From Zasmidium citrigriseum (taxonomy: Eukaryota > Ascomycota > Dothideomycetes > Mycosphaerellales > Mycosphaerellaceae), in assembly GCA_002786025.1 (NCBI GenBank), contig NHNW01000073.1, positions 248,001-312,000 on the forward strand: a stretch of DNA of 64,000 nt, read 5' to 3'. Both the position numbers and the translations under genes were made by a program. This document shows, piece after piece, positions 4,822-64,000 of this stretch; the stretch's first letter is position 1, and every line of letters starts with the position of its first letter. The notes beneath the pieces are model-generated. The model searched no databases and was not told the origin of the DNA. It saw only the letters and a list, made by a program, of their open reading frames with translations.

Positions 4822-4826
4822 TAAGC

Positions 4827-5014
4827 TATAAAGGGCGATACTCTATAAGCTTAGTACTAGCCTAAGGTATTAAGCCTATACTCTTAGCTACGAGGAGGCT
4901 TAGTATACTACGCTTTTCTCCTTAGTCTCTAATAGATAGATTCCTCTTTCCTTCTTTATCGAACCTATTATATACTATATCGAGCTTTAGTATATACGCT
5001 ACTTACCTATAATA
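4827..5014 (+). repeat. 5' LTR of Gypsy element
   Basis: The 188 bp sequence starts TATAAAGGGCGATACTC and ends CTTACCTATAATA. It aligns end to end without gaps to 12258-12445. Differences are C/T or G/A only. The five bases before it (TAAGC) repeat after the 3' LTR. Confidence 0.92.
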
Positions 5015-5099
5015 TTAGGTTTAATTAATATTATAGACGCCTCGAGCTTCTTCGTAGAAGCTAACGTAAATACCCTAGGGAACGACTCCTCTAGGTAGG

Positions 5100-8000
5100 A
5101 GCTAACGCTAGCTACTATATAGTATATCCTCGAAGAGATATATAATCGCTAGTAGACGATAGAGACTAAATTATAGTTAACGAGAGCTACGCTCTAATAG
5201 TTAGAGGCTACTTAATAAACCGTAGTAGCTAGTCTAAGCTAGTACTAAGGAGCTACTACGAACGAGCTCCTATAGCGTTTAGTAGAGGCCCTCCGACCTT
5301 CTACTATAACGACTACTACTACGTCTATAGTCCCTATATAGGAAACTATAGGACCTAGGGAATAGAGACTACCTACTTAGGATAGCTAAGCTAATATATT
5401 CTACGACTATTTTAGTCGGATTTAGAGCTCTTACTACGTATATTCCGTATTAAGACCCTCGCTCCCTACTAAATATTACTAGAATATTATCTATAATACC
5501 CTACCTACTAATAAGCGAGCCTAGATAAGATACTTCTAGGAATATAGCTACCTAACTAGTAGTAAGAATCCCGCTACTTTCTTTACGTAACTCGAAGATA
5601 TTTTCGCGGATATTAATAAAGCCGCGAAGGTACTAGAGAAACTAACGGTACTTAAGTATACTAATAGGTAGCTATAGTATAAATACTAGCTAGATTTCGA
5701 CGGACTCCTACTATTAGCTAGCGGAAGCTACTAGACTAATATATCTAAGATTAGGTACCTTAAGAACTTATTCTCGAACTCTACTACTTCTAATACGGTT
5801 ACTATAGCTAAGTATATAGACTACTACCGCTTTACTAAGGAGGTAGAGAGAATTATAACTAACTACGAGAATCCCGACTAGTTTAAGGCGGCTAATAGAA
5901 GATAGTTAGAGAAGAAGGGTAAGGACTCTATAAGTTCTACCCTAGGTAGCGCGTAACTATACCTAGTTCTAATAGTAGTACCCTAAACTAACTCTAATAG
6001 GGACGTCGTTATAAATAACGCGCGAACTAGTAGTAACTATAGTAAAGGATATAGAGGGCGTTAAGGAGGCTTAGGAGGAGGACGACCTTCCTCTAGTAGG
6101 AAATAAAGAGCTAAGTAGGTCGATAATACGGAAAGGGAGAGACGCTATAAGAAGAAGCTCTACTTCCGCTATAGAGTAGGCGGATACTATATTCGTAACT
6201 ACCCCTACGTACCTATAGTATAGCCTACTATAATTAACGCTATCCTTACGTAGCTTTTACTAGAGGCTAACGAAGAACTCGTAGAGAGTAATAACGAAGG
6301 ATAGGGAAAAGAGTAACTCCTACTTAGAGTTAGGAGCTAGGAGTTACCCTAATATTAGTAGAAAAATAGGATAGAGTTAAGGAGGATATAAACGGAAACC
6401 TTATATATACTAACGTAGTCCTATAAAATAATATTAGAACCTCTACTCTTATTAATAAAGATTATTAATATTATACTATAATTAATACTAGCCTTATAAA
6501 AGGCCTTAGACTAAGCTATATTAGCCGCGAAGTCTATAAAGTAAAAGGAGCGTCCTCCGCTATAAAGGGCGTAAATATCGTTAGCGTAGTCGCCCTTTGT
6601 ATAGAAATTAATAGATACCTATAGATAGTATACGTATACGTAGTACTAGACCTAGCGTTCCTACTAATCCTAGGAAATCTCTAGAAAGTATATAATAAAG
6701 TTAGGACCGCGCCTAAAAAACGGCGGTTCTACTATAAGTAGGCGAAGCGATAGGTATAAGAAGGACGTAACTATTGTGGGAGGGCAACACCGACCACACA
6801 ACAGTGATCTTGTTCCCTTACTAGCCACGAGGCCCAAGATGCTTCCGGGTCCTCCTACGAAGGAGGATTGTCGATAGCCTCGTTGAAGGAAGGAATCAAA
6901 CAAGGAGTAACAAGAGAAGTTCAAGGCTCGCTGAGACCAAAGCAAGAGAACAAGGCAAGGCAATCAAGGTAGAAAACAAGGCTCAAGCAAGGGATAACAC
7001 AAGGCTCTCAATTTGATAGGGTCAAAATCACAATCTTCTTCTCGCAGAACGCTTCAATTCGAATTCAGTACATAGCATGTGTTATATAAGAGTCTGTTGC
7101 CTGCCCATGAGAGATCTCATCTCAAACCCCTCGCCACAAGATGATAGGCCACTTCCCCGGATCAGAATCAGGCTGGGAACCCCTGAGTTGAAGGAAGTGA
7201 TGTTGCTCGCCAACACTATTACAAATTCGAGGAACGCGGGAGTATTACTATACTATCCGCTAGTTTTACTACGCTCGCTATAGCTATAGCGGAAGATATT
7301 AAGAAGGTACTTAAGCTAAAGGAGTACCTAACTATCTAGGCCCTATAAAAACGACTACCTCTAGAGGTTCGGGATCTAGCTCTACTATTTTATTGCCGAG
7401 AAGCTAAGAAGTTAGCCCCCTATAGACTAGGTATCGATTACTATATCGAACTCTATAAGAAACTAGACGGATCCTAGCCTATACTCCCCTAGGGCCTTCT
7501 ATATAGTATATCGAAGTAGGAACTACTAGTATTAAGGAAGATACTAGATAAGCTCCTATAGAAGGGGTATATCTAGCCTTCTAACTTAGAAGCCGCGGCC
7601 CCTATACTTTTTATTTAAAAGCCTAGTAGAGGACTATACTTCTACTATAACTATAGGAGGTTAAATACCCTAACGAAGTAGGATAGGTACCTACTACCTC
7701 TAATACTAGAGACCTTACGAAATCTTATAGAAGCTAAATAGTTAACGAAGGTTAACGTCGTTTCTACGTTCTATTAGATAAGGATAGCGGAGGGCTATAA
7801 GTATAAGACCGCTTTCCGTACTAGATTTAGCTCTTTTAAATAGCTCGTATATCCGTTTAGGTTATTAGAGGCTCTAGCTACTTTTTAATAGTATATTAAT
7901 ACTTTATTATAGGAGTATCTAGACGACTTCGCTTCTACCTATATCGACGACGTAATTATCTACTCTAATAGGTCTAAAGAGGATTACTTCTATAAAGTTT

Positions 8001-10560
8001 ATACCGTTCTCTATAAACTTTAGAAAGGAGGCCTTTATATTAACCTAGATAAGAGTAAGTTCGCTTAGAAGTAAATTAAGTACCTTAGTTTTATCGTCTA
8101 CGCTAATAGAAAAGGAGTATCTACTAATCCTAAAAAGGTAGAAGCCGTAAAGAAATAGGCGGTACCTAAGACCTAGAAGAAAGTACGAAGATTCCTTAGG
8201 TTTACTAACTACTACTATATATTTATTCCTAACTATTCGAAGATTACTATACCTTTAACTACGCTTACTAGTAAGGGTACGCTATTCTCCTAGGGAAAAG
8301 ACTAGGAGTATACGTTCGAGTTACTAAAAGATAAGTTCTATTAGGCTCTAATACTTACTTAGTAGGATCTAACGCTACTAATATTCCTAGAGACGGATTA
8401 TAGTAGCTTTACGATAGGTAGCGCCCTCCTATAAGAAAAGGGTAGTATCTAAAGACTAGTAGGCTTTTTCTCGTAGAAACTAAATAAGTTAGAGATTAAC
8501 TATAATATCTACGATAAAGAGATACTCGTAGTAGTATCTAGTATTAAGTTCTAGGAACCCGAACTAAAAGCCTATAGTCCCTTTATAATTTAGACGGACT
8601 ATAAGAATCTAGAGTACTTTATAGTAAAAAGGTAACTATTAGAGTAATAGATCCGTTAGTAGGAAACCCTAGCTAAGTTCTAGTTCTCCTTAGTTTATAG
8701 GCTAGGTACTAAAGTAGTAATCCCTAACGCCCTATTAAGGAGGGAATAGGATACGTTAGGGGCTAACGATAAACTCTTATAGTTTCGCCGCTTTTTAGAT
8801 CTAGATCGCGTACTAAATTAGCTAGATAACGTATAGTCGACTATTACTTAAGTTACGCTAGCCCTCGAACGTTTAAACTCGGATACTACTATAATTAGCT
8901 ATATATTAACCCCTCGACGAATAGGAACTACTACTATAGCGCCTATAGAGATAGACGCCGAGCCCGAGGTAAATAACGCGGAGACTAGCGGCCCTTTCTA
9001 GGAAGCCGAACTTAATAGCCTCTAGGCTAAAGCCGTCGAGAAGGATAAAGTATACTAAGCGGTTCTCTAGGCTTTAAACGATAGAGCCCGTACTTTACTA
9101 GAGTAGATTAAGGTAAAGATCTAGCTAGGGGACTATAGCCTTAACTAAAGAGGATATCTACGATACTAAGAGAAACTATAGGTACTAGGCGCTACTATAA
9201 CTATAGAAGCCGAGTATTAAGCGCTAGAGGCTAATAAGAAAACCCTAGACACTTTAAGGACTAAGTTAATCTAGTCTATATATAATTCTCTAGTATATAG
9301 ATACCTAGAGTAGGACTCTACTACTATAATCGCGCGACGTAACTTCTATTAGCCCCTTTAGGCGAAATACGTTCGATAGTTCCTTTAGAATTATAAACTA
9401 TATAGGAGAAATAAGGTTTAGCGAGAATATAAGTATAGCCTCCTAAAACCTTTACTAGTCCTCGACTATTTCTTCTAGGAAATCGCTATAGACTTTATTA
9501 CTAAACTCCCTAACTCCTAAGGGAATAAATACCTTTAGGTAATTAAGGACTAGCTAAGTAAGTAGGTAACTCTAGTAGCGATACCTAATATAAAAGCGGA
9601 GGATTACATAGTAATTTTTATAGAAGCTTAGGTTAAGTACTATAGGCTTCCCTACGCTATTACTAGCGATAGGGGTACTAACTAGACGAGTACTTTTTAG
9701 TAAGTACTCTATTAACTATTAGGCGTAAAGTAGCGTTTAAGCTCTACTTACTACCCTTAAATAGACGGAGGCCTAGAACGAATTAATTAAGATATATAAG
9801 CGTACCTCCGAAACTATATTAACTAAGAGTAATCCGACTAGAGTAAGTAGCTCTCTAGGGCGTAAATAGCGCTAAACGGTAGGTATTACGTAGGATTAGG
9901 TATAAGCTCCTTCTTTATAACTTATAGGTACGAGACGACCTCCCTAGTCGTATTAGAACTAGATCTCGTAGTAGATAGTAGGCTTTTAGCTATAAAAAGG
10001 GCGGAGGTATTCGTTAATAAATTAAAATAGATTTTAGATCTCTACTAAGCTAGTATAGTAGAGGCCGCCTAGTTATAGGAGGAGAGCGCTAATAGAAATA
10101 GGACTCTAGCGCTAAAATACTAGGTTAGCGATAAAGTATAGCTAGATCTAAGGAACTACTATACCGATCGCCTAAAGAAGAGCCTAGATATACGTTACGC
10201 TAAGTATACTATCTCTAAGGTTTTATCGCTAGTCTCTATATAGCTCTCTAGGATCCCTAGTAATATTTACTTAGTATTCTATATAGATCTACTAAGGCTA
10301 GCGAGCTAAGACCCCTTACCTAGATAGGAAACTAACGATAATTAGCTAGACCTAGTACTATTCGAGACGTATAAAGAATAGAGCGTAGAAGAAGTACTCT
10401 ATACGAGAAATAAGAGGAGAGGACGAGGGAGAGAAGTCCTCGTAAAGTAGAATAGATACTATAAACTAACCTAGGAACCCGTAGAAAATTTAGTAGATAC
10501 TATCGCTCTAGACGAATTCGAGAGGAAATTTAGAAATATAATAGAAAATAATAGTCCTTT
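5100..10560 (+). pseudogene. Decayed gag-pol with chromodomain
   Basis: The frame is destroyed by stops, but diagnostic motifs read through on the plus strand. A zinc knuckle remnant lies at 6158-6205: Cys and His codons have become Tyr codons, but the GG..YIRNYP spacing is kept. The reverse transcriptase YIDD box is at 7940-7951, followed by VIIYS. The RNase H motif LETDYSSFTIGSALL is at about 8387-8430. The integrase catalytic triad is Asp at 9491, Asp at 9668 (within ITSDRGT) and Glu at 9776, giving exact D-x58-D-x35-E spacing in one frame. An HHCC-like region lies upstream, around 9345-9420. A C-terminal chromodomain reads at about 10370-10530 (SVEEVLYTR, EVLVK, EPVENLVD). The boundaries given are approximate. 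Confidence 0.85.
6775..7215. mobile_element. Solo LTR inserted after RIP
   Basis: This 441 bp block has normal CA and TG content, unlike the sequence on both sides. It starts TGTGGGAGGGCAACA and ends TGTTGCTCGCCAACA, so it has TG...CA ends with a short imperfect inverted repeat. The four bases CTAT flank it on both sides (6771-6774 and 7216-7219). It contains a TATA-like box (TTATATAAGAG, about 7081) and no coding potential. Its sequence is unrelated to the surrounding element's LTR. It most likely arose by LTR-LTR recombination of another retroelement that inserted into the already mutated Gypsy protease region. Confidence 0.8.
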
Positions 10561-12232
10561 AGACGCCTAGTAAAGAGGCGGAAGGCGAAGGAATTAGTAT
10601 AGAGTTTAGGCGTTTTTAGAAGGGGAAAAGGAATAGTAGAGAGAATTAATAGAGAGAGGACGAGTCTCTATTTAGCGTTTAAGGGCTACCGCCTAAGCTA
10701 TCCTAGTAAAAGGCCTATAGGCTATATAGAAAACTTTAGAGGGCGAGCTTAGACGCCTACTCTCTTATCCTTAACCTTCTTCTTACTAGTACTACTACTA
10801 GTACTACTAGAGCTACTAGTAGCTAGGGTATTACTACTAGAGGCTAGGGCGCGGGCGTAGCGAGACGTAGTATTAGCGCGACGATAGCCTAGGCGTAGGG
10901 TAGTAGAGATAGAGCCTAAGCTAGAAAGTATAGTTAGTAATATTTTTCCTTTAGAGTTTTAGGAGTACTTATATTTAGCCCTAGCGGGCGATAATATCCT
11001 CGATAGTAGTAGTTACCTTATCGCGAATAGTACTATAAAATTTATAGTTAGTAACGTTTCTAGTATAGAAGCTAGAATATACTTATAAGGAGATACTAGA
11101 GGTACTAAGACTACGTAGAGCTTTATAAGCCTAAAGGCCTTTCTTAAGCTAGCTATAGTTAGCGGCGCTATTACTAAATTAGCGGTATCTAATATAATCT
11201 ACCTAGAATCTAAGACTTATATAATTATAGCTATAGACTAAGTCTACGCTACGTAAATAACGTAAACGATTTAAGGGCTAGGAGTAGTTAGTAATACTAT
11301 TTCTATAGAGAGTAGAGAACTTATAGTAGGTAGTAGGACTTATAGCTAGTAGCGTAGGCGGCGTAGGCGGTAGTAGTACTATTAGTACCCTAAGACGTAT
11401 AAGCTAGATCTAATAAGAGAATAGCGGAAATCGATACTTATAGCCTAGTCGATATAGTCGACGCTAAGGGTAGTATAACTATAGTAGTATAGGCGAGGTA
11501 TCTATCTCTAATTAGCTTATACTACTTTCTAGCGATTTCTCGATAGGATATATACAATAGAGCTAGTAGAGGGGCGGAGATATATTAAGTCTAAGGCCTC
11601 TATTAGTCTTTAGTTAGAAGTCGCTAGATTCTTACTAGAGAAGTACGTATATTATAATAGATAGTAGTAGATATCGTAGTTAGTAGATACTACTACTACT
11701 TATATTAATACTAGATACTTACTAACGCTTTTCGAGCGGAATACGACTATTACTAAAGGGTTACTAGGTATTAGATATTATTAAACTTACTTTACTTTTA
11801 GAGGCTACTAAGGAAAGAAGAAGATTAAGGTATAAGAGAGTAGCTAGGTATTTATCCTTCTATAGGAAAAACGAGTAAAGGCGACGTTTAAGTAAAGGAG
11901 CGCTAGCTACCTATTAAGTAAAGAAAATAGGCTATTATTAGTAAAGGATAATAGTAACGAACGATAGCTAGGCGGTAACTAGATAATAAGAGACGGATTA
12001 CGAGACTATTTAGACGATTACGAGACTAATTTAACGCCTCTCTTTACTCTCGATAATAAGAGTAATAATAGGAAGTATTTAATAGACCTAATAGGAAAGG
12101 ACGGAAGCCTAAAATAGTAAAGCGGTTTGCTAGATAATAAAGGCTAGTATTAAATAAGTAGGTAGCGAGGTTAATAAACTTTACCTCTATTAGAGCGCGA
12201 CCTAATTTACTTAGAGGACGGGGTTTCCCCTA

Positions 12233-12254
12233 TAGAGGGAGGGGAGAGAGAGGG
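12233..12254 (+). other. Polypurine tract of Gypsy element
   Basis: A run of A and G ending AGAGAGAGGG lies immediately before the 3' LTR, the expected position of the plus-strand priming site of an LTR retrotransposon. Confidence 0.75.
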
Positions 12255-12257
12255 TAA

Positions 12258-12445
12258 TATAAAGAGCGATACCCTATAAGCTTAGTACTAGCCTAAGGTA
12301 TTAAGCCTATACTCTCGGCTACGAGAAGGCTTAGCGTACCGCGCTTTTCTTCTTAGTCCCTAATAGATAGATTCCTCTTTCCTTCTTTATCGAACCTATT
12401 ATATACTATATCGAGCTTTAGTATATACGCTACTTACCTATAATA
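12258..12445 (+). repeat. 3' LTR of Gypsy element
   Basis: This 188 bp copy matches 4827-5014 without gaps. It keeps more C and G at the differing sites (for example CTCGGC against CTTAGC), so it is the less mutated of the two. It is followed by TAAGC, the duplicated target site. Confidence 0.92.
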
Positions 12446-12450
12446 TAAGC

Positions 12451-14650
12451 TAACGTAGCTACCTCTTCTTATAATATAGCGGCCGATAGACGTAGTAGTC
12501 TATTACGGAAGCTATTACCGCTACTCGTTAAGATAGATCTAGATATAATACTAATCTACTACTAATAGCTAAGACGTAAATTTCTAACTATAGTATCTAT
12601 AATTAAGGTAGTATAGAGCTAGCTCGCTACTAACTATATCTACCTTTAATACTTAAAGTCTAGCTCTAATAGAGACTAAGGATTAATAGCGCTTATAAAG
12701 AACGTCGGTATAGTATACTAACTTCGTAATAGCGTTAACGACTTCCTTCGTAACTATACTAGAAATAATATCCTCGACTCGGACCTCTATAGTAAGATAG
12801 AGGAAGAGTTATAGCGTATACTATCTAAATTTAGTACGAATCTAACCGTCTAGTATTAAGTTATTTAAAGCTAATATCTAAAGCTTATAGTCTAGCTATA
12901 AAGTCTACTAGTTTAGCTTTACTATTCGTCTAAATTATATCGCCTTCTCTTACTCTTTTAATATATTTCTCCTTAGGTATACTACTAATTCCGCTAGTAT
13001 TTAGTTTAATAGGTTTAATAGGGTAGTAGTAGTATATAGGGGGTAGAAGGAAAGGGTAGTAAATAAAGCTATAAAATTAAGCTATTACTAGAACCTTAAA
13101 AATCCTAGTTTAGACCCTAATTTTAGCGTATTAATCTCGCGTTTTAGTATACTTAGTAGAAATCTACTATACTTTTATTAATATATAGATACGCTATATC
13201 GCTTCTCTATTATATTTTTAATTTTATTTTATATAGAGGTAAATTACGTATTATATAAAAAAAAAACGAGTTAATCCGTAGCGTAGTTATTAAGATACTA
13301 AATTTTAAAGATTCGTACTATAAAGCCTATATACGGCTTTAAAGCTAGAGTTAACTTAGGTAGGCGACGATAATACCCCCTCTCCTATACTACGTAGATA
13401 GTATATACTACTACGAGTTATATACGAGCTCGGAGTATATACTAAGAGCTTTTATTTTATCTATTAAACGTTAAAATTAATAGTATTTTAATCGAATACT
13501 AGGTCTAATCCGTCGACGTTAATACTAGCTCTCCTAAAAAGATTTTTATATATATCTTCCTTCCCCTTATACTATATATTATAGCCTAGTCGTAGATATC
13601 GCTCTATTACCTATTACTATCGTTTACTTCTTTTATACTTTAGTATAAGGTTCTAGTGTCTTCTAATCTATTATTTAAATAGGTAGAACGATAGTTCGAT
13701 AGGATTAAGATATAGCGAGTAGGTAGGTAAGAACTTAATAAGTACCTAATAAGGTAGATATAACTATCTTACCTTATTATAGCTATAGGTCGAGTAATTG
13801 TCTATTATAAGTACTAAACGCTAGCTAGGGTATAGTATCGTAAAAGGTAGTACTAATTTACTTAGCTAGGCGAGAAACTCGCTACTATCGATACTCTCTC
13901 GCTTAATCCTAGTATAAGGAAGCTATCTATTAATAGTATAGGCTAGAAGGATAGTATATATCTAAGGGGCGTACCTATATTTAGTAGTAATTACTAGTTC
14001 GCCTTTTAGTAACTATCTATACCTCTAGATAGTAGTCCTTTTACTATAATATAACTCGTCGATATAGACTAGTTAGTACCCTTTATAGTAAGATAGTCTA
14101 GTAAAGTAGGCTAATATTATAACGTTATCTCGCTACTTCGCCCTAACCTAAGTAATTTTTCGTATATAACTAGTATTAACCTATACCCTATTAATAGTTA
14201 TAACGCTTACGAAGACTTTAAACTCGTCTAATATTAAGTCCTATATCTCTTCTACCTATATAGTACTCTTATTTAACTAGTACTTAATTATAAAGTCTTA
14301 GATCTTAGGTATAATCTTCTTCGGCTAGCTAGACTCGCCTATAGGCCCGTATATTATACTAAACTACTTAAACTTTATAGATAGTCGCTTAACGGTAGTA
14401 AGTAAACCTTTTAGGCGTAGAAGGATCTATATCTTATCGTTAGATAGTCCTTCTTATAAGAGTAGTTTAATATATACCCTATTAGCGTTATTAAAGGGTA
14501 CTATTAGCTATAGAGAGTTAGTATAATATATAGATAGACGTAAGGATACTATATATTAATAATAATAATCCTATAGCCTTATATATTACGAATTAAGGCG
14601 ATAGGGTGGGTAGAAAGACCTCTAGAGGGAAATTAAACTACGCGTGCAGT
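12451..14650. repeat. RIP-ruined right arm of outer transposon
   Basis: This stretch is TA-rich, with CA and TG almost absent and no recoverable protein. It lies between the Gypsy 3' LTR and the right inverted repeat. Its length (about 2.2 kb) is close to that of the left arm, so the Gypsy element landed near the middle of the host transposon. Confidence 0.6.
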
Positions 14651-14717
14651 ACAAATTTAGGTGGTGAGTGTAGTCTTGGCACCCGCCCGCGGGCCCAGGG
14701 TTTTAGAATCTAAGAAT
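14651..14717 (-). repeat. Right terminal inverted repeat of the island
   Basis: This is the inverted counterpart of 2538-2608, ending GGGTTTTAGAATCTAAGAA followed by TA. The stop codon of the neighbouring HET gene (14703-14705) and its last few codons lie inside this repeat. Confidence 0.65.
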
Positions 14718-16610
14718 ACTTTGCAGCAAGACAACCGTTAGCAAGAGTGCGAATACGATCACTAACCCCCAAAGACGATGCCTATTAGCCCATTTACTTT
14801 CCAAAGACGAGAAAGAAGCGTTTCTTTGATTTTCTGATTGCAGAGGACTGGAGGACTCACCAGAGACCATTGTGATGATCTTCTGCCGGCGATTCTGTTT
14901 GAATGAGATCTCAACATCATCGATCCAATCCCAATCTATCCTGCGGCCAGAGGGTACTCGAGCAGTCGTCGTTGCATCTTTGCCATTTGTAGAGTCGCTG
15001 CTACCACTGCTACCCAAGAGCCCCAACTCAAGGAGCATTGCCAGAGTCAGGGAGATATTCCTCTCGGCAGGACGACTTGCAACATCATCCTCCGGCCTCC
15101 AGTGACCCAAGCGACGATTCTCATCAGGGGCAAACAGAAAAGCTCGACCGAGAATTGAGGCTCGCCGCTCACTGGCGTCTTCTCGCACGATGAAGACGAG
15201 ATGTGTTTTGGGAAAGTGCCAAATGGCATCGCCGGCTTCGAGACGACAGGTCGCCAGGCCGTAGAGCTCCGTGCGTGCGATGCGGAAGTATGTCATGTCG
15301 TCTCTGCCGACGGGGACTTCGCTTTGGGCCGGGAGCTGTCGATCGTTCAGAGCCCAGGGGTCACGGAGTGTTGAGAAGGAGTAGATGGGCATTGGATGGA
15401 GAAGGTTGGTGGTATTGCGTAGGGCGATGGAGGTGTTCGTTTCTGGCTCCTTTTGCGAGAGAACGTTTCCCAGGACGGTGGCGGGGACGATGGTTTTGAG
15501 CCTCTCGCTGAGTCCCTGCTCGTCTCGGAGCTGTTGCAGCGATATCTGGAAGAGTCTCACGAGCAGGAACGCAAATTCAAGGATCTTGGCCGGGGGAATG
15601 GGCTCGTGGGCGCAGACGAACTTGACAACGGCCACCATTCGCTGCATCGGGGTTTCGTTGTAGTCGATGCTCAGGTGGCTCTTGTGGTCTCCGACCAAAC
15701 TCCACAGCGCATAAACATGGTCCTCAGGTCGCTGGCATTGGTTGCCGGCATACCGCTCCACGAGCTCGTGCAGCCATCGTGTCGACGAGGAGCTCCCGTC
15801 TCCGGACCGCTGCAAGGCCAGAACTGCCGCCGGACTCTGTGTGATGACATGGGCGATACTTCCCCGAGAGCTGAGGGCCATGTAGGCGTCGTTATCTTTG
15901 TTCTGATCCAGCTCTTGACAGAAGTTCTCGAACTCCGTCATCGGACACTGTGCATTGCCGGAGCGCAGGACGACGGATGACGCCGTGACGAGCTCCTGAA
16001 TTATCCACTTCCTAGTCCAGTATCGCAAGCCGCAAAGACTTTCCAGCATGCGCCAGTTCCTATCGTTTTCCGCCGTGTGGCGACGGCAGTAATGCCAGAC
16101 CGAGTTTCGTGGATCCGAGCCTGATCTACCATTCCTGTACGTACTTGCGGCGTGCACGAACTTGAACGCCTTGGCCACATCTCTCGCCCTCTCTCCAGTG
16201 CTTTCCAGCCAGACCACGACGCTGTTTGCACTGCCATAAATCTGGCTCATCAACTGGACCTGGTGGCTGCGTTCCTCGTTTGAAGTTTGATTAATACAAA
16301 TGGCGTCGATCCATAGCAGACACTCCGAGTCTTTACGACGGAGGGATCGTAAAGCATTCCGTAGATTCCCACGCACGCGGATAACAGAGCCGGACGAAGG
16401 CACGTAGATGTCATGGCGTGGGGCGTCTTGGCCCCAGGTATAGGAAAGAGCGCGGAAAGAGACTGGAGAGGAAAGTTCGTGGTGTTGGATCGAGCACTCG
16501 AGGTTCTGGGAGCCGGAGCCGCGGTGGAGATTGAGGAGGCGGAAAGTTGTCTGCGTCTCGAGGGGTTGGTATTCGAACGGCTTTGCATTGGACTGGGTAG
16601 TCGGTGACAT
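14703..16610 (-). CDS. HET-domain protein with C-terminal membrane anchor
   Basis: This 635-aa protein has an N-terminal heterokaryon incompatibility (HET) domain. The sequence shows the FRALSYTWGQ motif near residue 52, the LLWIDAICINQ motif near residue 100, and QVQLMSQIYGSANSVVVWL following it. HET domains trigger cell death after fusion of incompatible hyphae when coupled to a sensor; the partner here is unknown. A hydrophobic helix (LWGLVIVFALLLTVVLL) lies at the extreme C-terminus and suggests a tail anchor. The start is the ATG at 16610. The last residues (about SILRF) and the stop are encoded by the transposon inverted repeat, so the native C-terminus may have been altered by the insertion. 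No intron is needed. Confidence 0.88.
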   Translation of the reverse strand: MSPTTQSNAKPFEYQPLETQTTFRLLNLHRGSGSQNLECSIQHHELSSPVSFRALSYTWGQDAPRHDIYVPSSGSVIRVRGNLRNALRSLRRKDSECLLWIDAICINQTSNEERSHQVQLMSQIYGSANSVVVWLESTGERARDVAKAFKFVHAASTYRNGRSGSDPRNSVWHYCRRHTAENDRNWRMLESLCGLRYWTRKWIIQELVTASSVVLRSGNAQCPMTEFENFCQELDQNKDNDAYMALSSRGSIAHVITQSPAAVLALQRSGDGSSSSTRWLHELVERYAGNQCQRPEDHVYALWSLVGDHKSHLSIDYNETPMQRMVAVVKFVCAHEPIPPAKILEFAFLLVRLFQISLQQLRDEQGLSERLKTIVPATVLGNVLSQKEPETNTSIALRNTTNLLHPMPIYSFSTLRDPWALNDRQLPAQSEVPVGRDDMTYFRIARTELYGLATCRLEAGDAIWHFPKTHLVFIVREDASERRASILGRAFLFAPDENRRLGHWRPEDDVASRPAERNISLTLAMLLELGLLGSSGSSDSTNGKDATTTARVPSGRRIDWDWIDDVEISFKQNRRQKIITMVSGESSSPLQSENQRNASFSSLESKWANRHRLWGLVIVFALLLTVVLLQSILRF

Positions 16611-17015
16611 GAGCGCTGCGGAATCGAGGTCTTATCGAGGGAGCTGCGAAGGGGAAAGAAAGTCAGCAGGCAAGATCGATGGAGAGGTCATCGCATCACT
16701 CCGGCGAGAGGCTGAGTTCGATGTTGAATCGTGCCTCAGTCGTAGAATTTGGCGCAACTGAGGCCGCCTCGCGGGCGACAATGGCGGTGCTCCGAACTCT
16801 CTGCCCCGGGCATCCAATAGCCATCGTTGTACAGTCGCAGCTGATATGCAAGAGTAAGGCTGACCAATGACACCACGGTTCGCAAATGTTGTCTGGCAGC
16901 CTTGTCCTTGGCGGCGACCTCAACCTTCGACAACCAAGTCCTCGGGCCAGCCTCATCGAGATGTCTCTTCAATACTCAAGAGGTTCGACCAATCCACACA
17001 TTATATTTCCTGAGA

Positions 17016-55560: not shown

Positions 55561-57153
55561 TCAATCTAACTCCTCAAACCGCCCATCATCAATCGCCTGC
55601 TCCACAGGATTCTTCACATCCACCACGCCCGTCGCCTTCAACCTCTCAAACAACACAAATAACCTCTCGGCCTCCTGTTCTTTCTCCTCCTCCGTCATCT
55701 CCTCCACCTTCGGAACTTCTCGATCCTCGGCGCTATACCTCTGTCCCGTGACGGGATTGACTTCATTCGCACCGCCCTCGGCGTCATCGCTGCTCATGCT
55801 GCTGGCTTCCATCGCATTGGTCGGGATCTCGATGTTATGGCTCATCAGGAACCCTGAAGCGAAACCGTAGCCGATGTTCTTGACGAATTTGGATGCGTCT
55901 TTGTCGCTGAGTTCGAACAGGAGGCTGGATATGTTTTCTCGTAATGTTGGGAGGTTCGGGGAGCATGATAAGCGGAGAAGCCGAGCGGAGAGTGTCTCGC
56001 CTTGCCCAAGGGGTTTGTCGCGGTCTTTTGGATTTGGAAGCAGGAGCCAGCGCATCCAGGATTTCATCTGAGGCGTTGCGAGCTCGTACATTCTGCGGAT
56101 GAGAGTGCAGAGGGGCGCGGCGGCTTGGTCGAGGTCCCGCTCGGATTGTTTGCGGATTGCTTCGTCGAAGATGCAGACGAGGCGGTCAACGACGGATTCT
56201 GGGTTGGAGTAAGGAAAGAGAGGACTTGCGCGGGATTCTGGGCCCATGCGGGTTTTGCGTTCAGAGGCTTTGATGTCGAGGTTGAGGAGGGCGTTGAGGA
56301 GGTAGGTTATTGGTGGTTGGAGAGGTGGGTTTGGGAGTGGGTGGTGGAGGATTATGTTGATGAGGGGCTCGACTGAGGGCGTGAAGCGGGGAATTAGGTC
56401 GGGGTAGTAGTATGTTATGTTGAAGAGGAGTTTCAGAGTCTCGACCATGGCCATGTCTTGCAGGGAGGATGTGCTGGATTTTCGCCGGCCGCTTTTGGAA
56501 AAGTTCTTGGCATGGCGCAGGATGTGGTTGTTGATGCTGTCGGCCAGCTTATTATCGTCCACGAGAACTTCGAAGTCGATTTTGGTGTTGTAGGTTAGGA
56601 GGAAGAGGATTCGGGATATTAAAAATTCGTCGTCTCGGTTGTCGACTTTCAGTCGTTCGGCTGCCTTTGGTCCGTAGCCAAAGTCGACGAAGATTTGTCG
56701 TGAGGGCTCATTGAGGAGGAAGGCGTTTGCCAGACATCGTAGTGCTTCTCGTGAGGCATTGTTTGCTTCTCTGTCGAGGCCGTATTTTGACAGTACGGAA
56801 ATGCCCTTCCATCGTCAGCAAAGCGAGATAGGATAGTTGGAATGAGTTCACACACTCGCTTCGTAAAGATGGGACCTGCAGTCTCGGTTCTCCGGCCAAG
56901 GACTTTCACCTGACCCAATATATCTTCTTGCTCTAATACCAGTAAGCTTCTGGGTGGTAAAGCTGATTGGACCATTCACTCACGTTTCAGCGAAAGTTTA
57001 GCACCTTCCAGATTCTGCTCAAGCTGGAGAAGGAGCCGGTCGACCTCAGCGGTGCCTGGATAATGCGGCTAAAGTTAGCGTTGCACGTGTGCGAGGCGTA
57101 TAGATTGGGGAGGCTTCTACCTGCGCTGGCGTCGGCGGCGACTGGGGTGGCAT
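55561..57153 (-). CDS. RIC8: RIC8 (synembryn), guanine nucleotide exchange factor and chaperone for G-alpha
   Basis: RIC8 folds and activates G-protein alpha subunits. Four exons (57153-57121, 57068-56984, 56932-56856 and 56805-55561) separated by introns of 50-52 nt give 479 aa, the usual size. Conserved stretches are ASREALRCLANAFLLNEPSR, then QIFVDFGYGPKAAERLK, DDEFLISRILFLLTY, and the C-terminal block NPVTGQR...MTEEEKEQEAERLFVLFERL...NPVEQAIDDGRFEELD. All joins keep frame, and branch-like CTAAC and CTGAC sites precede the acceptors. The start at ATG 57153 (MPPQSPPTPAQ) is the first in-frame Met of the joined reading. The RIP-damaged repeat region begins about 280 bp upstream. Confidence 0.92.
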
Positions 57154-57430: not shown

Positions 57431-58197
57431 TTTAGGTCGATATGCGGCCAGTATACGGCTTCTACGGTAGGATATCGGGTGTCTTAGCAGCTACTAGTCG
57501 ATATCCGAGGCCGGTATTCGGCTACTAAGTTATATTAACCTTATTTATATATATTAGATTAGTCGATAGCTAAAGAATCGACCTTATAGTTTATTTTATA
57601 TATTATATCGCCCCCTATATATATACTCGCTTATTAGTTATAAGCCTAGTTCGCCTATAATTAGGCTGTTTAGGGTATCGATTAGCCTAAACCTAGTACT
57701 ACCCCTTATTTATTAAAGTTAATCGACCTAAAACCTATCTAATTAGATACTTCCTACTCTCCTAATACCTTACGAGCGTAATAGCTACCTCGATGTTTAA
57801 TCTTAGCGACCTACGACTTGAATCGCGGTTAAAAGAGTTACTTTATAATAGTTCGCGGAAGTTTAACGACTACTAGATAATCTCCAAGAGTAAGGTAAAG
57901 TTAATAGGTATTTTATAATATATATAACCCGTACGAATTATCTAGGATCTAGCAAACCCGAACAATACAATTTAGGTTGGTCCTAAACCTAAACCTTAAA
58001 ATCCGAGGTACCTATTACTACTAGTATTAGACTTTCTAGTCGGAAATACTAATAGTTTTTAAACTAAAGACTAATCGACCTTTAAGCTCTAATAGCGTAT
58101 CTCGATAGCCTATTATAACGCCTAGCAATATAGGTTTAGCGTTAAGCGAGACGACTATCTTCGTTTTTAGGTAAAGAAGTTATAGTAGAAGTAGATA
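57431..58197. repeat. RIP-damaged AT-rich repeat
   Basis: Beyond about 57480 the sequence is TA-rich with few CA and TG, and no protein could be read. The boundary contains a degenerate direct duplication: TCGATATGCGGCCAGTATAC near 57437 against TCGATATCCGAGGCCGGTAT near 57498, each followed by CGGCT. The element type was not identified. Confidence 0.55.
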
Positions 58198-58310
58198 CCG
58201 AGGTGGGCTAGGTTAGGTTGGGCTAGGCCGACGGCCTAGAACTAGGCCTATTAAAGTTAGGCTTCTGGGCCCGGGAAAAATCCAGCGGGCCTTAGTAGGC
58301 CTACTAGGCT
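58198..58310. other. Candidate hAT terminus and subterminal repeats
   Basis: The stretch starts CCGAGGTGGGCTAGG, resembling the C.GAGGTGGGC ends common in hAT elements. It is followed by GGGCTAGGCC, GGCCTAGAACTAGGCC and GGGCCCGGGAAAAATCC, GGGCC-type repeats often found just inside such ends. The partner terminus is not in the window, so no inverted repeat can be verified. Confidence 0.4.
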
Positions 58311-58580
58311 AAAGTAGGCTATAGATAGAGAAAAGATGTGTTTAATCTTTATATAGACAAAGTGTTAATCGGCTACATAACATTAGGTAGAGGAGGTAGT
58401 ATAGCAAAGAGGTAAGCTACATAACTTTTAAGGAGGGGGAGGGGAGTAGGGGTATCGTCGCTCTTAACATCGCTTGAAAAACAAATTATCTCTCGAGCCT
58501 CCACTTTAGGAGGCATTCTCTCTAGTGCCATTCTTAGTCTGCTGTTCCTTAGGCTGCTGCTGCGCTAGCAGGTCCTAAGT

Positions 58581-58675
58581 CTCCTTCGTGCTAGCCTCTA
58601 CTAGCTGCTCGGTCGGCATATCCTTAGGCTCCTTCGTGCTAGCCTCTGCTAGCTGCTTGGTCGGCGATACCTAAG
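58581..58675 (-). repeat. Two-fold in-frame repeat in H3-like extension
   Basis: Two units carry the peptide pattern PT(K/E)QL.EASTKE, repeated near the C-terminus of the extended H3-like protein. Confidence 0.7.
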
Positions 58676-59401
58676 TATTAGTTGTAACAGCCTCGGTTGG
58701 CTACCGGCTACTACTGCCGGCTACGGGCTCCTTAGGTAGCTAATAGACATTAATACTATCTTGTTTACCGATAGTAGGCTGCTCTTTAGCCCACTCTTCG
58801 AGAGGATAACCTACAGGAGGTTCAGGGCGCTAGGCGCGAGACTCCGTCTACTACTACTTAAGTAGCGCGTTAGCCGCGTCCGCCTCATCCTTTCGGATCT
58901 TAAGGACCTGGATGTCCTTCTAGTTCCAGAAGTGTTCGGCGACTAGCTACGCCTTCTTCATAACCTATTCTTGCCTTCGTTCTTCGTCTTCCTGCTAGCT
59001 ACGGTCGCCGGCTACGCTAGACTTAGGCGCCTATACTGCTCTAGTCGTTTGCTGTGGTGGAGCCTTCTTAGAGGTCGCCTTCTTGCTAGGCTAGGCTTTT
59101 ATAGTCGGACAGACGTTAGGATCGACTATATTGCCTATCTAAGATAGTGGAGGCTTGCGACTAGCCTTCGTCTTAGGGTGGTTCCAAAAGTCCCTTAGTA
59201 GGCCGTTAATGTACTTGGCCTCCTCCGTAGTAATCTTGAAGTCCTTAATGTCGACCCAGCCCTAGACTCGTTAGAGGACTTAGTGGCATTTGCGGTTGTT
59301 ATTGGTCTGCTTCTTAGCAGCCTTCTCCGCTTTCTTCTAGTCGGCTAGCTTCTTCTTCACCTTAGCCTTCCTAGCCATCTTCTTCTCTCGTTCACGTTTC
59401 A

Positions 59402-59451
59402 CTAGATATCGTTAGTAAATGCTAGCTACGTGTGCCGGCTACGCAACTTAC
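59402..59451 (-). other. Intron 3 of extended H3-like gene, shared core
   Basis: This 50 nt intron has donor GTAAGT, branch site TACTAAC and acceptor TCTAG. Between them is the core CGTAGCCGGCACACGTAGCT followed by AGCA. Removal keeps the reading frame. Confidence 0.8.
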
Positions 59452-59628
59452 ACTATGCAATGCGGTCCGCATAACTAGTACTCTTATTACTTAAGCCTTC
59501 TTCGTCATTGGCCTCCATTCTCTCGAGGCGCGACGACAATCGTTTCAGCTCTCTATCCGTTTTGTCGACACGACGCTAAAGAGCCTCTTTATCGCTGCCG
59601 TCTTGTTCTTCTTCTTCTTCTTCTTCGA

Positions 59629-59790
59629 CGGGCTCAGGTAAGGCAACTCGAGCTCTCTTGCGTGGATTACGCTAGCTGCTAACGGGCTTAGGTAAGGCAA
59701 CTCGAGGTCCTCTCTTGCGTAGCGTACGCTAGCTGCCGACGGGCTTAGGTGAGGCAACTCGAGTTCTCTTGCGTAGCGTACGCTAGCTGC
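59629..59790 (-). repeat. Three-fold in-frame tandem repeat, 54-57 bp
   Basis: Units start at 59629, 59683 and 59740. In the minus-strand frame each encodes a variant of (stop or Gln)RTLRKR followed by RVA.PKPV, a basic, proline-containing motif reminiscent of DNA-binding tails. Confidence 0.8.
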
Positions 59791-60084
59791 CCTAGACGAG
59801 GCGCTTCCGGCCTCTATTGCCCTTATATTGCTCCTCTTAGGCCTAGAACGCCGCTTCGTTATTATCGTTCGCAATAATACGAGAGTCAACTTTGCCTTGT
59901 CTCTTATTGTTTAGGTGGGTGATTTGCTTCTTGAGACTAACACTAATAGTAGCTCTTAGGTAGGGAGCGTCTATTGTACCGCGTAGCTTGAAGTTGTTAT
60001 AGATCTTAAGGATCTAACTAAGAGTATAAAGATCCTTCTACATGAGCGTAACACACTTTCCGTTAAGCGTGATAAGGTTAGCAG

Positions 60085-60136
60085 CTAAAAATCATTAGTA
60101 TACGCTAGCTACGCTTGCTAGCTACGCAGAACATAC
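60085..60136 (-). other. Intron 2 of extended H3-like gene, shared core
   Basis: This 52 nt intron has donor GTATGT, branch-like ACTAATG and acceptor TTTAG, with core CGTAGCTAGCAAGCGTAGCT followed by AGC. Removal joins the helix-2 codons (CDMFK) to ANLITL in frame. Confidence 0.8.
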
Positions 60137-60379
60137 CTTTAAACATGTCGCATAGCACGTATGCCATAGCATATCGGAGGGCTTAGATTGCATCTTTCTT
60201 CTAGCGTGGCTCGAAATGAATGTATTTGCCCTTGTCTTCGACATAACGCCTAACTCTCTTGGCCTAGTCTGTGTACTCTTTCTACACCATTTCCCGTATA
60301 AGGCGCGAGAATGGCGCGAAGGGGATTTCCTAGTCGGGCGGAATTTCCTAGAGACGTCGCGTCTCTCGAAAGTGTCTCT

Positions 60380-60430
60380 CTGTTAAAGCGTTAGCGACCT
60401 GCTAGCTACGAGTGCCAGCTACGGGCTTAC
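60380..60430 (-). other. Intron 1 of extended H3-like gene, shared core
   Basis: This 51 nt intron has donor GTAAGC, branch-like GCTAACG and acceptor AACAG, with core CGTAGCTGGCACTCGTAGCT followed by AGCA. Removal keeps frame. Confidence 0.8.
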
Positions 60431-60599
60431 GAAGTTGCTACTAAGGCGTCAAAGTGCGGCCTTCCTAACCATTTGCGCCTAGTATCTTAACATTACGTAC
60501 ACGAGCGACACCTAGTAGCGCCTTAGTAGAGAGCTACCTGCGAGGCGCTTTCGCTGCTAACGCCTTAGCTTGCGCGGTAGGTCTCTTTATACGCGCCAT

Positions 60600-60991
60600 A
60601 ATAAGGTGAGGTGAAGTATGTGTGAATTTTTCCAGGCGTCGTAGGCGGTTAGAGCGCTCGAAACGGGCTAAGGCGGCGGTAGGGGTAGGTGTTGTAGTGT
60701 TAGAGGGTTTGAGATTGCGACTAGTGTTTTATGCTAGCGTTTCGTGTAACGTCATGGGTACATATAACGGCAGGTGTGCCGAAGAATATAGGGAAGGAGC
60801 TATAGCTAGCCTGCGTAGCCGGCAGAAGCTAGGGAAAAAACGTATAGTAAGCCGCGGGGATTACACTTCACCTCACACTTTACTACGGGTGAAAACCCTT
60901 TACATACCGCTTGAAAACGCGGGAAAATGCACGGAAAGACTTAGGGAAGAATAGATATTCATTAGTACTGTTCTCACTAATCTCGGCTAGT
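60600..60991. other. Spacer between the two histone-like genes
   Basis: These 392 bp should contain the promoter of the extended H3-like gene. One copy of the core-like sequence (CTGCGTAGCCGGCA, near 60800) occurs here in the plus orientation. The plus-strand open frame in this stretch has no recognisable content. Confidence 0.45.
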
Positions 60992-61728
60992 CTAGCGCTG
61001 CCGTAGCTTTTTACATAGAGCTATATCCTTCGACATAAGGGTAACGCGTTTCGCGTAGATAGCTAGTAGGTTGGAGCACTCGAATTCTGAGACAAGGAAC
61101 GCTTTGGCGGCTTCTTGCAATGCCTTAATCGCGGACGCCTACCATCTTGTAATTTCCCTACCTACGGCCTACTCGCTAGAAATCTCTCGAACTAGTCGTT
61201 GGAAGGGCACCTTTTGTATAAGGAGGGAATACCCGGATTTCGTAGAGCCCTAATATTTCCGGATCTCACGTAGAGTAGCTCGACTAGTATTAAATTTTCG
61301 TCGTTTGCGAGGTGTGTTATAATCCGTTTTCTTCGCGATAACTTTCTTGCGCCTAGTTCGGGCTGCGCTTTTTTGTGCCTTTCCAATCGCTGTCTTGGCT
61401 CTCTTCTTTTGTTAAGGTGCTTTCGTAGTTTTGCGCGGCGCCTTCGCTAGTACCGTTTTACGAGGGGCTTTCGAGGACGTTTATAGTCGAGACGGACTAG
61501 CTTTGGGGTTCTAAGACCGTCGTTAGATTAGGTACTTAGCCAACGATAGGTACTTCATACCGTAGTCTTCCACGATGTAGGTCTGTCCGTATCCGAAGCT
61601 AAGGGTTAACTAGCGGGTAGCACTTCTATACGTTTTCGTAGTAGCGGGGAGGATGGCATATCGTCATTAACCTTATCGTTGTTATCGAGTTCGTCGTTAT
61701 ATTCATCGTTATCTATTGGACTAGGCAT
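60992..61728 (-). pseudogene. CENP-A-like histone H3 variant, RIP-damaged
   Basis: Two exons (61728-61561 and 61510-60992) joined across a 50 nt intron (GTATGA...CTAATCTAAC...TTAG) give 229 codons including six premature TAA or TAG codons. The N-terminal tail is long (about 125 residues), acidic at first, then basic with two KAPRK motifs. The fold reads ATLREIRKY-stop-GST (H3: ALREIRRYQKST), VPFQRLVREI, then [17 protein letters not shown] (H3: RFQSSAIGALQEA), [16 protein letters not shown] (H3: LCAIHAKRVTIMPKDI). Loop 1 between REI and WQ has 12 residues against 9 in H3, the same length as in yeast Cse4, and Trp replaces Phe, both features of centromeric H3. The stops sit at two Gln codons conserved in H3. 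The stop at 60992 may itself be mutated Gln, with the original end slightly downstream. It is not the genome's functional CENP-A in this state. Confidence 0.83.
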
Positions 61729-62336
61729 ATCGAGAAGGGCTTAATTACTTAGGAATTAATTAGAGTAGATAGCGGGCATGTTTTGGAGGTTGAAGAAAGG
61801 AAGATAGTAAGAGCGGGGAAAAGGGAAGCTTTTGAATTGCCGCCAAGACGCTAAGAAGTACGTGAACGCCGGCTACGCCTACCGACTACGCCTTAAGAGT
61901 AGTGTCCAATGCAGTAGGCTTCTTTCTACTCTAGGCACGCGTTTTTCTTCTCTTTAGTACGCCGCCTTCCCCTTTGTTACTAATATAGCAGAGATCCTCC
62001 TTAGTAGCGATCTCATGCTCTAGTACGTCGTCCTCTATCTGCTGCTCGAACGAATCCTTGTTAGACCGTTCTATCTACCTTGACTCTTAACGAAGACGGT
62101 GGCGACACATTATAATAGCGCGAAAGACATCCGGATGGTATGACTGATTGTAACGAGCTTGGTAGCGAGCAATACTAAAGGCCCTCTCGCATCCGATTCC
62201 CGCTCCAGGTATACAGAGTACGTCTCTAGCAATCTTCGCAATCGTAGGGAACTATTGCTCAATATGTGCCTACTAAGCAAGGATATCGTCACTAACCACA
62301 TTATGGAGGTTCGAAAAGTCTAGATACGTTAGACTA

Positions 62337-62391
62337 CTGCAAGCAACTAGCGGCGGCTGCTAGCGACAGGTGCTAGCTACGGTTAACGTAC
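62337..62391 (-). other. Intron of hAT transposase, shared core
   Basis: This 55 nt segment has donor GTACGT and acceptor TTGCAG, with core CGTAGCTAGCACCTGTCGCT followed by AGCAG. The joined frame is off by one base by my reading, so either the copy has a small indel or a border differs. Confidence 0.6.
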
Positions 62392-63226
62392 CTTTTCGTT
62401 TGTAACGAAAGAACTCTTCCATAGGGTCGTCGTCCACGTGTTAAGAAGAGCTCGTCTAACTTGAATTTCCTCTAAAGAGTCGTGACTGTTTCGTAAGCTT
62501 CTGTCTCTTACGCTATCCACCTTGCGAGTTCTGCTGCGAGCTGCTTTCAGCTTTAGAATACTTTCGAAAGAGCTTCTTAAGACAGTTCCAATAATGTTCT
62601 TCCTACTCTAGTTCTAAAGCCTACTTAGGTAGCTGCCATAACTCGCCCTTCTGCGATGGATAGAGTAGGACAGCAACACTATACAGATCGCCGAATAATT
62701 CAAACGTCTGCGAGTAGTATTTGTTAAGCTTTTCCTACGCTGCCTCCAGAGCTACGAGCATTCTCTTTTTCCATAGCTTCCGTTTCTTCTCAAGTCGCTG
62801 TCGAGTAGTATCTATACTATTGAAAATGTAGTTATACAACCTAAAGATAAGGTGTAGTGTTAGCCCATATAACCGACTTATAAGCGCTATCGCTTTAGCG
62901 AAAGGTCTCGCTAACTTAACAAGGTATTTAACTTAATTCCACTTAGTGTTAGAGAGCTCTAGCTAGTCGAGCTCATACTCCTTGTAGTATTTGTTAATAG
63001 AGTCTCGGAGAAGACATAGTCAAATAAGCATGTAGTATGTCGAGTCGAATCGTGTCTTAACATCTTGGATAAGTCGAAGCTTCTAAAATGCATCCCGTGT
63101 CTATCTTTCGTTCCAGGCTATCGCGGCTTTAGTCATGATGGGTTTCTTGTTTACTTCGACCTAAATACGTTCGAAAGCCTCTGTCCGCGGTAAGTTCTAA
63201 TTGACGTGGATCGCTGTTTGTCGAAT

Positions 63227-63296
63227 CTGTAGATTATTGATTAGAGATGTCTATTGCTAGCTACGCGTGCTAGCTACGGCCAAGTCCAAAACTCAC
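63227..63296 (-). other. Intron of hAT transposase, shared core
   Basis: This 70 nt intron has donor GTGAGT, branch-like CTCTAATC and acceptor CTACAG, with core CGTAGCTAGCACGCGTAGCT followed by AGCA. Removal joins PLVLFK to IRQTAI in frame. Confidence 0.75.
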
Positions 63297-64000
63297 TTTA
63301 AAAAGGACTAGGGGAATGTTATCCACGTTGTTCCTAGCTTTAATCTTTTCAAGTTCCTTGCGAGAGGTGGTATTGTTAATCGTCTTCTCTAGGTCGTCAT
63401 TCTCTAGCTCCAGCTTTAGCTCCGAGAACAGAGCCCGAATCGCTAACTATACAACATACGCAAAGCATAGAAAGTAATATATCTTCGGACTGTCCGCGTC
63501 TGGATCGTAAATCTACTCGTTAGACTCTATTTCGTTCTCTGCACTTACGGCCTTGACCTATATTTCTAGTCTCGTAAGCTAGGTGAGGTTAGTAGAACGA
63601 GACAGCTTCTAAACTGCCTTTAGACTACAATTCGTTAGAACGTTTAGCGCTTTGCATCTTCATAGTACGTATACGGCGCGATGCAGGGTCCTATTGTTAC
63701 TAGCGTTGTTAGTCGTTAAGGCGGTTAGTTTCATATTACATCCATAGGTAGTTATCGCCTTCTCGACTAGTTTCGCCATGTTCTCTCTAGTATGTTGGCC
63801 ATGAATAGCAGGGAAGTCGAGCAGCTCCTCATAGTATGTCCAAGTAGGATCAATCCAATAGCCCTTAATACTAAGGAACGACGCCCGCATTAACCTAGCA
63901 GACCACGCATTAACAGCGAAAGCGACTGCGTTGCACTTGTTAATTTGTCCTTGTAGTTGCTATATTACCTACTTCTCGCGTTCTCGAATCCGTGCTCGTT

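Follow-up and report, generated by a model that had tools for sequence, protein, structure and literature searches.

Do histone H3-like genes that lie next to a transposase belong to the transposon, and if so, are they accidental cargo or a working part of it? This question is raised by one end of a stretch of 64,000 nucleotides from the fungus Zasmidium citrigriseum (GenBank assembly GCA_002786025.1, contig NHNW01000073.1, positions 248,001 to 312,000), hereafter called the window, in which an earlier note had described a hAT transposase and two H3-like genes. The window contig is labeled C120 here (window = C120:248001-312000), and the genome searched comprises 44.4 Mb in 148 contigs. S denotes the short and L the extended H3-like gene, A a gene without an assigned Pfam family, and family I the hAT family to which the window element belongs. 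The transposase, S, L and gene A belong to one hAT element. Beyond this, we regard it as moderately probable that the element represents an autonomous-type hAT family, now inactivated by repeat-induced point mutation (RIP), which carried a transposase, gene A and an H3-derived pair, S followed by L, and which S had served for a long time.

A hAT Element With Two H3-Like Genes

Alignment of the family-I copies revealed common ends at window position 58192 and at C120:315247, corresponding to an end-to-end length of 9,056 bp for the window element (Table 1). The earlier note had placed the left end at 58198; a terminus is indeed present there, its exact position however is 58192, flanked by AGTAGAAG. 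The second terminus, which the note had expected to the right of the window, was found 3,247 bp outside of it and is followed by the same 8 bp. Target duplications of 8 bp were present in all three family-I copies for which both ends were read (C120, C60, and C61), and in each of these three both H3-like genes lie between the matching ends, in agreement with the suggestion that one hAT element carries them. An ordinary hAT element inserted by chance beside a separate H3 repeat is hardly compatible with this arrangement, and we consider its probability to be next to nil. A nested or adjoining H3 repeat was also considered and is refuted for the window element by its ends.

The three traits of the hAT superfamily, namely 8-bp duplications, short inverted repeats and a Dimer_Tnp_hAT domain, are all present. 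The dimerization region of the transposase scored 29.4 bits in Pfam (cut-off 21.4), the RNase-H part of the broken window transposase stayed under its Pfam cut-off, and the BED-like region lies beyond the window edge. The gene order is gene A, hAT transposase, S and L, in one direction throughout; as noted earlier, the transposase and the two H3-like genes share one strand (minus). Gene A, located upstream of the transposase at approximately 604-2178 of the element (window coordinates 65070-66644, past the edge), encodes a charged product with repeats like NEASFNF. Except for histone and hAT, no Pfam family was found above cut-off in gene A and the remaining pieces of the element.

The earlier note had also described two clear H3 folds. 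This holds for S, which reached 79.4 bits for Pfam Histone (cut-off 26.4), and not for L of the window copy, which at 23.1 bits (E 9e-5) remained under the same cut-off. By sequence, S has four CenH3-like/H3-like helices (CenH3 being the centromeric H3), with a loop 1 that exceeds the length found in H3 and carries R-W. The fold of S is without intron. In the stretch that was read, the tail of S does not contain ARTKQTARKS, while the H3 core is kept. The acidic stretch ahead of S (Table 1) is possibly its first exon.

Table 1. Features of the family-I hAT element in the window (window coordinates unless stated otherwise).
Feature	Position	Strand	Remarks
hAT element, family I	58192..64000 + 3,247 bp past the window edge (C120:306192-315247)	minus	aligned copies share both ends
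8-bp target site duplication AGTAGAAG	58184..58191		partner at C120:315248-315255, outside the window
3' terminal inverted repeat	58192..58212	minus	matches the element's 5' end at 17/21 outer bases
L, extended H3-like gene	58923..60599 (3' end approximate)	minus	H3-like tail MARIKRPTAQAK...KAPRR, divergent fold, long basic/acidic extension, several RIP stops
L intron, 52 nt	60085..60136	minus	phase 1, at the equivalent of codon D106 in H3, between helices 2 and 3
S, short H3-like gene	60980..61480	minus	basic tail and full histone fold (fold 61001-61279)
Acidic open stretch MPSPIDNDEYNDELDNN...	61621..61728	minus	comparable acidic stretch ahead of S in family VI
hAT transposase, C-terminal part	61934..64000	minus	broken by RIP stops; RNase-H-like 63663-63947; hAT dimerization 62090-62326

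Copies of Family I and Their RIP Damage

A search with a 951-bp piece around S yielded 11 genomic matches, of which 10 cover the full or almost full piece, at 82-100% identity. The earlier note had proposed looking for further copies that hold the transposase together with both H3-like genes. In 8 of the 10 other family-I copies, contiguous S sequence is indeed accompanied by L or a part of L; the exceptions are copy C3, which is broken after S, and copy C4, which starts at a contig end within S. Searched from the other side, family-I transposase DNA was found at 14 loci with at least 87% identity, 10 of which also contain S. The remaining four stop short of S, either at a contig end (C95) or within the transposase (C111, C145, and C122). 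A complete transposase ending before the H3 genes was not seen among these 14 loci, the broken copies of which were partly examined. The 3' end of the element also occurs alone, at locus C64, and pieces of the 5' part are found on further contigs. The 8-mer AATAGCGA adjoins two different copies of 96.5% identity, C3 at its 5' end and C7 at its 3' end, which might reflect recombination between copies, misassembly or chance.

The RIP index (CA+TG)/(AC+GT) was 0.65 for the window element and 0.51 for its 13.3-kb region, and 0.02-0.34 for the ten other copy regions; as its index is the highest, the window copy is the least damaged one. Compared with it, the ten other copies differ by 7-15% transitions, nearly all in RIP direction. 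Copy C125, for instance, shows 531 transitions and 3 transversions in 6,141 bp, with the RIP-type changes running 404 one way and 3 the other. The RIP-type damage that the earlier note had ascribed to the transposase and the H3-like genes alike is thus borne out by the differences between copies, and every family-I copy that was read is now RIP-inactivated. Transversions amount to 0.0005-0.0126 per site in the same ten copies, and these low values, together with the high share of RIP-direction transitions, suggest a fairly recent spread followed by RIP.

Such young and quickly broken copies are also what would be expected from passive transduplication, the published reading of comparable elements, according to which an H3 transcript of the host was acquired accidentally by a hAT element and spread with it as dead cargo, soon to be inactivated by RIP. 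The intronless fold of S would fit this reading, and so would the membership in the same fungal family, the size class, the two H3-like copies, the 8-bp duplications and the RIP-broken state of all copies, as far as these are described in the accessible text of that report (PMC6710886).

Six Families of H3-Like Genes in One Genome

A Pfam histone search of the genome yielded at least 55 matches, host histones included. Apart from the host genes, the H3-like matches that were read form six diverged families, I (the window) to VI, with S present in all six and L in five. The family III element spans 10,143 bp (C60:146302-156444, duplications GTTATTAG), with transposase and S on opposite strands, and the family VI element 8.96 kb (C76:578149-587103, duplications ACTAGTAC), collinear with family I. 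In family II, transposase sequence like that of family I is located upstream of S, and DNA from the transposase part of family III recurs at the family IV loci. In the family V region (C1:305837-310870), another H3-like match is found 3.7 kb upstream of S, so that perhaps three H3-like stretches lie within 5 kb. Beside or within a family-IV copy, the region C76:177501-187500 contains two more repeats with many matches (1-1651, 1.65 kb at 82-84%; 7407-10000, over 2.6 kb at 90-95%).

The host itself has three H3-type genes, a canonical H3 on C71, a CenH3 on C54 and an H3 variant on C69. The latter (C69:453395-456658), which is neither canonical H3 nor CenH3, is intact, undamaged and apparently single-copy, with an odd N-tail and a fold stretch identical to host H3 at 57 of 97 positions.

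A Shared Intron in Gene L

L is located downstream of S in families I, III, IV, V, and VI; for family II, no L was found in the 1.5 kb read downstream of S. The tails of L are ARTKQTA-like in families III and IV, where the start codons read ATA. The match to Pfam Histone is strong in family V (62.4 bits). A search of L against 5.8 billion proteins yielded 3,562 candidates, none of them at E <= 0.001.

In all five families, L contains an intron-like stretch of 48-52 nt in the same alignment column and in phase 1, at the codon of H3 D106. The donor GTAT and the signals TACTAA...TAG are found in families I, III, IV, and V; in family VI the donor is altered. The host H3, CenH3 and C69 variant are all uninterrupted at this site. 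Since such a coincidence in five families is very unlikely, L appears to have one origin within these elements, and we infer from the sequences that it entered the hAT lineage once, long ago, with the pair of S and L probably having done likewise. An intron that is common to the families and missing from the host genes also speaks against passive transduplication.

The short introns of family I (window 58715-63278, minus strand) contain a duplicated 10-mer, CGTAGCYRGC, at a distance of 13 bases. In line with the earlier note, which had pointed out an unusual intron core common to the transposase and L, the exact duplicated form occurs five times in the genome, always in the window copy (four times in L and once in the transposase). 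Gene A of the window element contains single cores, and family III has its own duplicated core, CCGTAGTAGTACCGTAGTAGT. One intron core per family, found in several genes, seems to be the rule, which recalls introners.

Origin of Gene S

S is identical to host H3 at 52 of 94 positions and to host CenH3 at 53 of 95 (approximately 55% each), and the mean identity of S is 54.9% to CenH3 and 56.3% to H3. This distance is more than would be expected had an almost invariant gene been copied recently, again at variance with passive transduplication. An alternative would be several independent captures, with S of families I, II, and VI derived from host CenH3, and S of families III-V as well as L from canonical H3. 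In line with this, S of I, II, and VI possesses a longer loop 1 with R-W at its end, as in fungal CenH3 (with the W in II and VI inferred from stops in RIP-damaged copies), and the loop is H3-like in III, IV, and V. Among the 60 PDB matches listed for S, Schizosaccharomyces pombe Cnp1 takes the top two places (89.5 and 89.3 bits), H3 following at 86.3 bits and lower. A search of 5.8 billion proteins with S yielded 2,952 proteins, and among the 120 matches listed the best named fungal ones were CenH3 (98 bits). The top matches in the same list are plant proteins, mostly of 183-293 residues, which were not used for the question of origin because tandem or long sequences may raise scores. Independent captures would also be consistent with a tree from purine/pyrimidine (RY)-coded characters, in which I, II, and VI group with host CenH3 (76.8/46), and with an approximately unbiased (AU) test, which did not reject a tree with I and II held with CenH3 (p 0.169).

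On the other hand, S has the PFQRLV of H3 instead of the PFS/ARLV of CenH3 and does not contain a C-terminal WGG, its mean identity to CenH3 is not above that to H3, and the amino-acid tree joins all S of families I-V (93/96, below the tool's star) apart from both H3 and CenH3, with I+II at 95/91 and III+IV at 95/87. RIP-proof RY characters gave a flat result, the log-likelihoods of one origin and of a link to CenH3 lying within 0.2 of each other (-761.2 to -761.4). Taken together, we consider independent captures to be rather improbable. The CenH3-like loop 1 might be taken as a sequence hint that S is centromere-like, while the trees support descent from neither H3 nor CenH3 decisively.

Codon-Position Constraint on S

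As RIP makes transitions only, constraint was assessed by counting transversions at codon positions 1/2/3 between families. Most weight is given to the comparison of families I and VI, since the homology of these two elements covers their full length, so that no separate captures are needed to explain their histones. For the fold of S, this comparison yielded 11/10/26 transversions in 94 codons (p 0.0011, positions 1+2 vs 3), and 15/14/34 in 130 codons with the tail included; the tail alone was not significant (4/4/8, 36 codons). Aligned non-coding stretches of the same two families, counted by phase as a control, showed no phase effect (9/5/6, 34/22/28, and 5/8/4). Further counts for S were 23/11/35 for I-II (101 codons), 19/10/33 for III-IV (97 codons), 28/11/38 for III-V (95 codons), 26/16/34 for I-V (98 codons) and 30/22/40 for I-III (98 codons). 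Three pieces of the transposase gave 18/20/33, 22/27/28, and 30/22/44 between I and III, in sum 70/69/105 of 271 codons, and judged by the I-III counts S is therefore constrained about as much as the transposase. L gave counts of 30/28/46 between I and III (88 codons). Non-coding sequence as a yardstick for the neutral rate was dropped, as only its conserved parts align and their own rates are low.

In the sequences compared, these counts show constraint at the protein level on S, and not on L, during the divergence of families I and VI. Under passive transduplication such a constraint would not be expected between elements that are homologous along their length and need no separate captures, and we regard that explanation as unlikely overall, although its chance is still appreciable. 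The H3-like genes are best read as transposon histones of long residence, of which at least S was selected as a protein.

Several points weigh against a histone system that serves the element. In all pairs except I-VI, an appearance of constraint could also arise if a conserved host gene had been captured several times, and the transversion rates of alignable non-coding sequence between I and VI (0.06-0.13) are near those of S positions 1 and 2 and below that of position 3. One transposase piece between I and III shows no asymmetry of positions (22/27/28, 83 codons), and none that is significant was found for L, be it between I and VI (24/18/28 of 79 codons, p 0.11 and 0.18), I and V (31/24/29 of 94) or III and IV (27/17/24 of 75). 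L of families I and IV (20.5 bits in the latter) lies under the Pfam cut-off and no Pfam match was obtained for L of family III, so that the identity of L in these three is based on its place, N-tail and intron. Family V is defined by its H3-like genes and is a putative hAT family, and the single clade of S could have been drawn together by RIP. The AlphaFold prediction for S was poor (predicted local distance difference test, pLDDT, 60.8), with no histone among 24 weak Foldseek matches. Finally, the evidence consists of genomic sequence.

A Possible Role of the Histone Pair

Cut-and-paste transposition by the hAT transposase is established for the superfamily, and the element described here would have moved in this ordinary way. 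In the proposed mechanism, which we consider the most likely one, S would pair with host H4 and take the place of H3 in the nucleosomes of the element or its vicinity. Chromatin containing S may then be a poor substrate for silencing by methylation of H3 lysine 9 (H3K9), and the escape would last as long as expression and excision of the element require. A replacement of H3 by S that weakens H3K9-methylation silencing is suggested by the kept H3 core, the absence of the ARTKQTARKS tail from the stretch read and the constraint on the protein. L may act as a divergent partner or a chaperone-like accessory.

Other Features of the Window

An AT-rich block (30-40% GC) at approximately 2900-14700 contains no frame of at least 110 residues wholly inside it and probably consists of old RIP-damaged repeats. 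A gene with a HET (heterokaryon incompatibility) domain lies at its edge (14703-16631, minus strand, Pfam HET 105 bits).

Relation to Published Elements and Implications

The earlier note knew of no described transposon of this kind, an assessment that does not stand, as H3-carrying hAT elements have been published for Pyrenophora (PMC3538342) and for Mycosphaerellaceae (PMC6710886). Dhillon et al. (2019) described them in Pseudocercospora fijiensis and five other Mycosphaerellaceae, and according to the accessible text these elements contain one or two H3-like sequences, are 9.5-9.9 kb in full length with 20-bp inverted repeats and 8-bp duplications, and are all RIP-broken; the authors interpreted the copies as dead cargo stemming from a captured transcript without introns (PMC6710886). 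Compared by description, the window element resembles them in its approximate 9.5-kb class (9,056 bp here), in the H3-like genes inside and in the 8-bp duplications. Gene A, the extension of L, the shared introns, the strand arrangements and the codon constraint are found here, none of them being described in the accessible text of PMC6710886. The second H3-like copy in P. fijiensis has a 16-residue insertion, and such insertions were removed before the authors' tree was made (PMC6710886). Sixteen codons correspond to 48 nt, as many as the L intron in family V contains, and we infer that the insertion is the L intron.

The host of the window lies outside the published clade, as delimited in the accessible text, and Zasmidium cellare was scanned there and was not among the positives (PMC6710886). 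For the Ric8 gene of the window (55564-56814), the best named match is Z. cellare with 88% (an unnamed metagenome protein reaches 89%), followed by Lecanosticta, Fulvia, Pseudocercospora musae and Dothistroma at 80-83%. For this single gene, the ranking makes a host in Mycosphaerellaceae very probable.

In Pyrenophora tritici-repentis, Manning et al. (2013) reported a hAT element with a dimerization domain, an H3-like gene (H3L) and a further open reading frame between inverted repeats; H3L, for which expressed sequence tags exist, could be assigned to neither H3 nor CenH3 (PMC3538342). With 5.6 kb, a single H3L, near-identical copies and little RIP, as far as described there, it is unlike the window element (PMC3538342), and it was reported to have no similarity to the elements of Mycosphaerellaceae (PMC6710886). 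The accessible text of the two reports contains no statement on selection on these histones or on a common intron in them (PMC6710886; PMC3538342). Fungal DNA transposons encoding TET/JBP dioxygenases likewise carry chromatin-related cargo, which according to the accessible text is a DNA-modification enzyme and not a histone (PMC12730594). A phrase search of the literature for transposon-encoded histones yielded no match, a result that says little on subscription journals.

Tentatively, and with a chance that we put slightly below even, the sequence comparisons may be read further: a hAT lineage would have possessed its own system of two histones (S, an H3 variant without K9 tail and, in families I, II, and VI, with a CenH3-like loop, and L, a long relative of H3), kept by selection across families and building distinct chromatin on the element itself or around the excision complex. 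The captured gene of the published elements would then have functioned in them over a long time, and the insertion of 16 residues in Pseudocercospora would be the L intron. The known range of H3-carrying hAT elements is extended beyond the published clade, with several families side by side in one genome. Transposon-borne histones of fungi have so far been taken for accidental cargo. Should S prove to be a part of the element that selection has kept, the nucleosome as such, and not its marks, would be what this mobile element alters, and the old question whether a transposon can escape heterochromatin by means of its own H3 would become testable.

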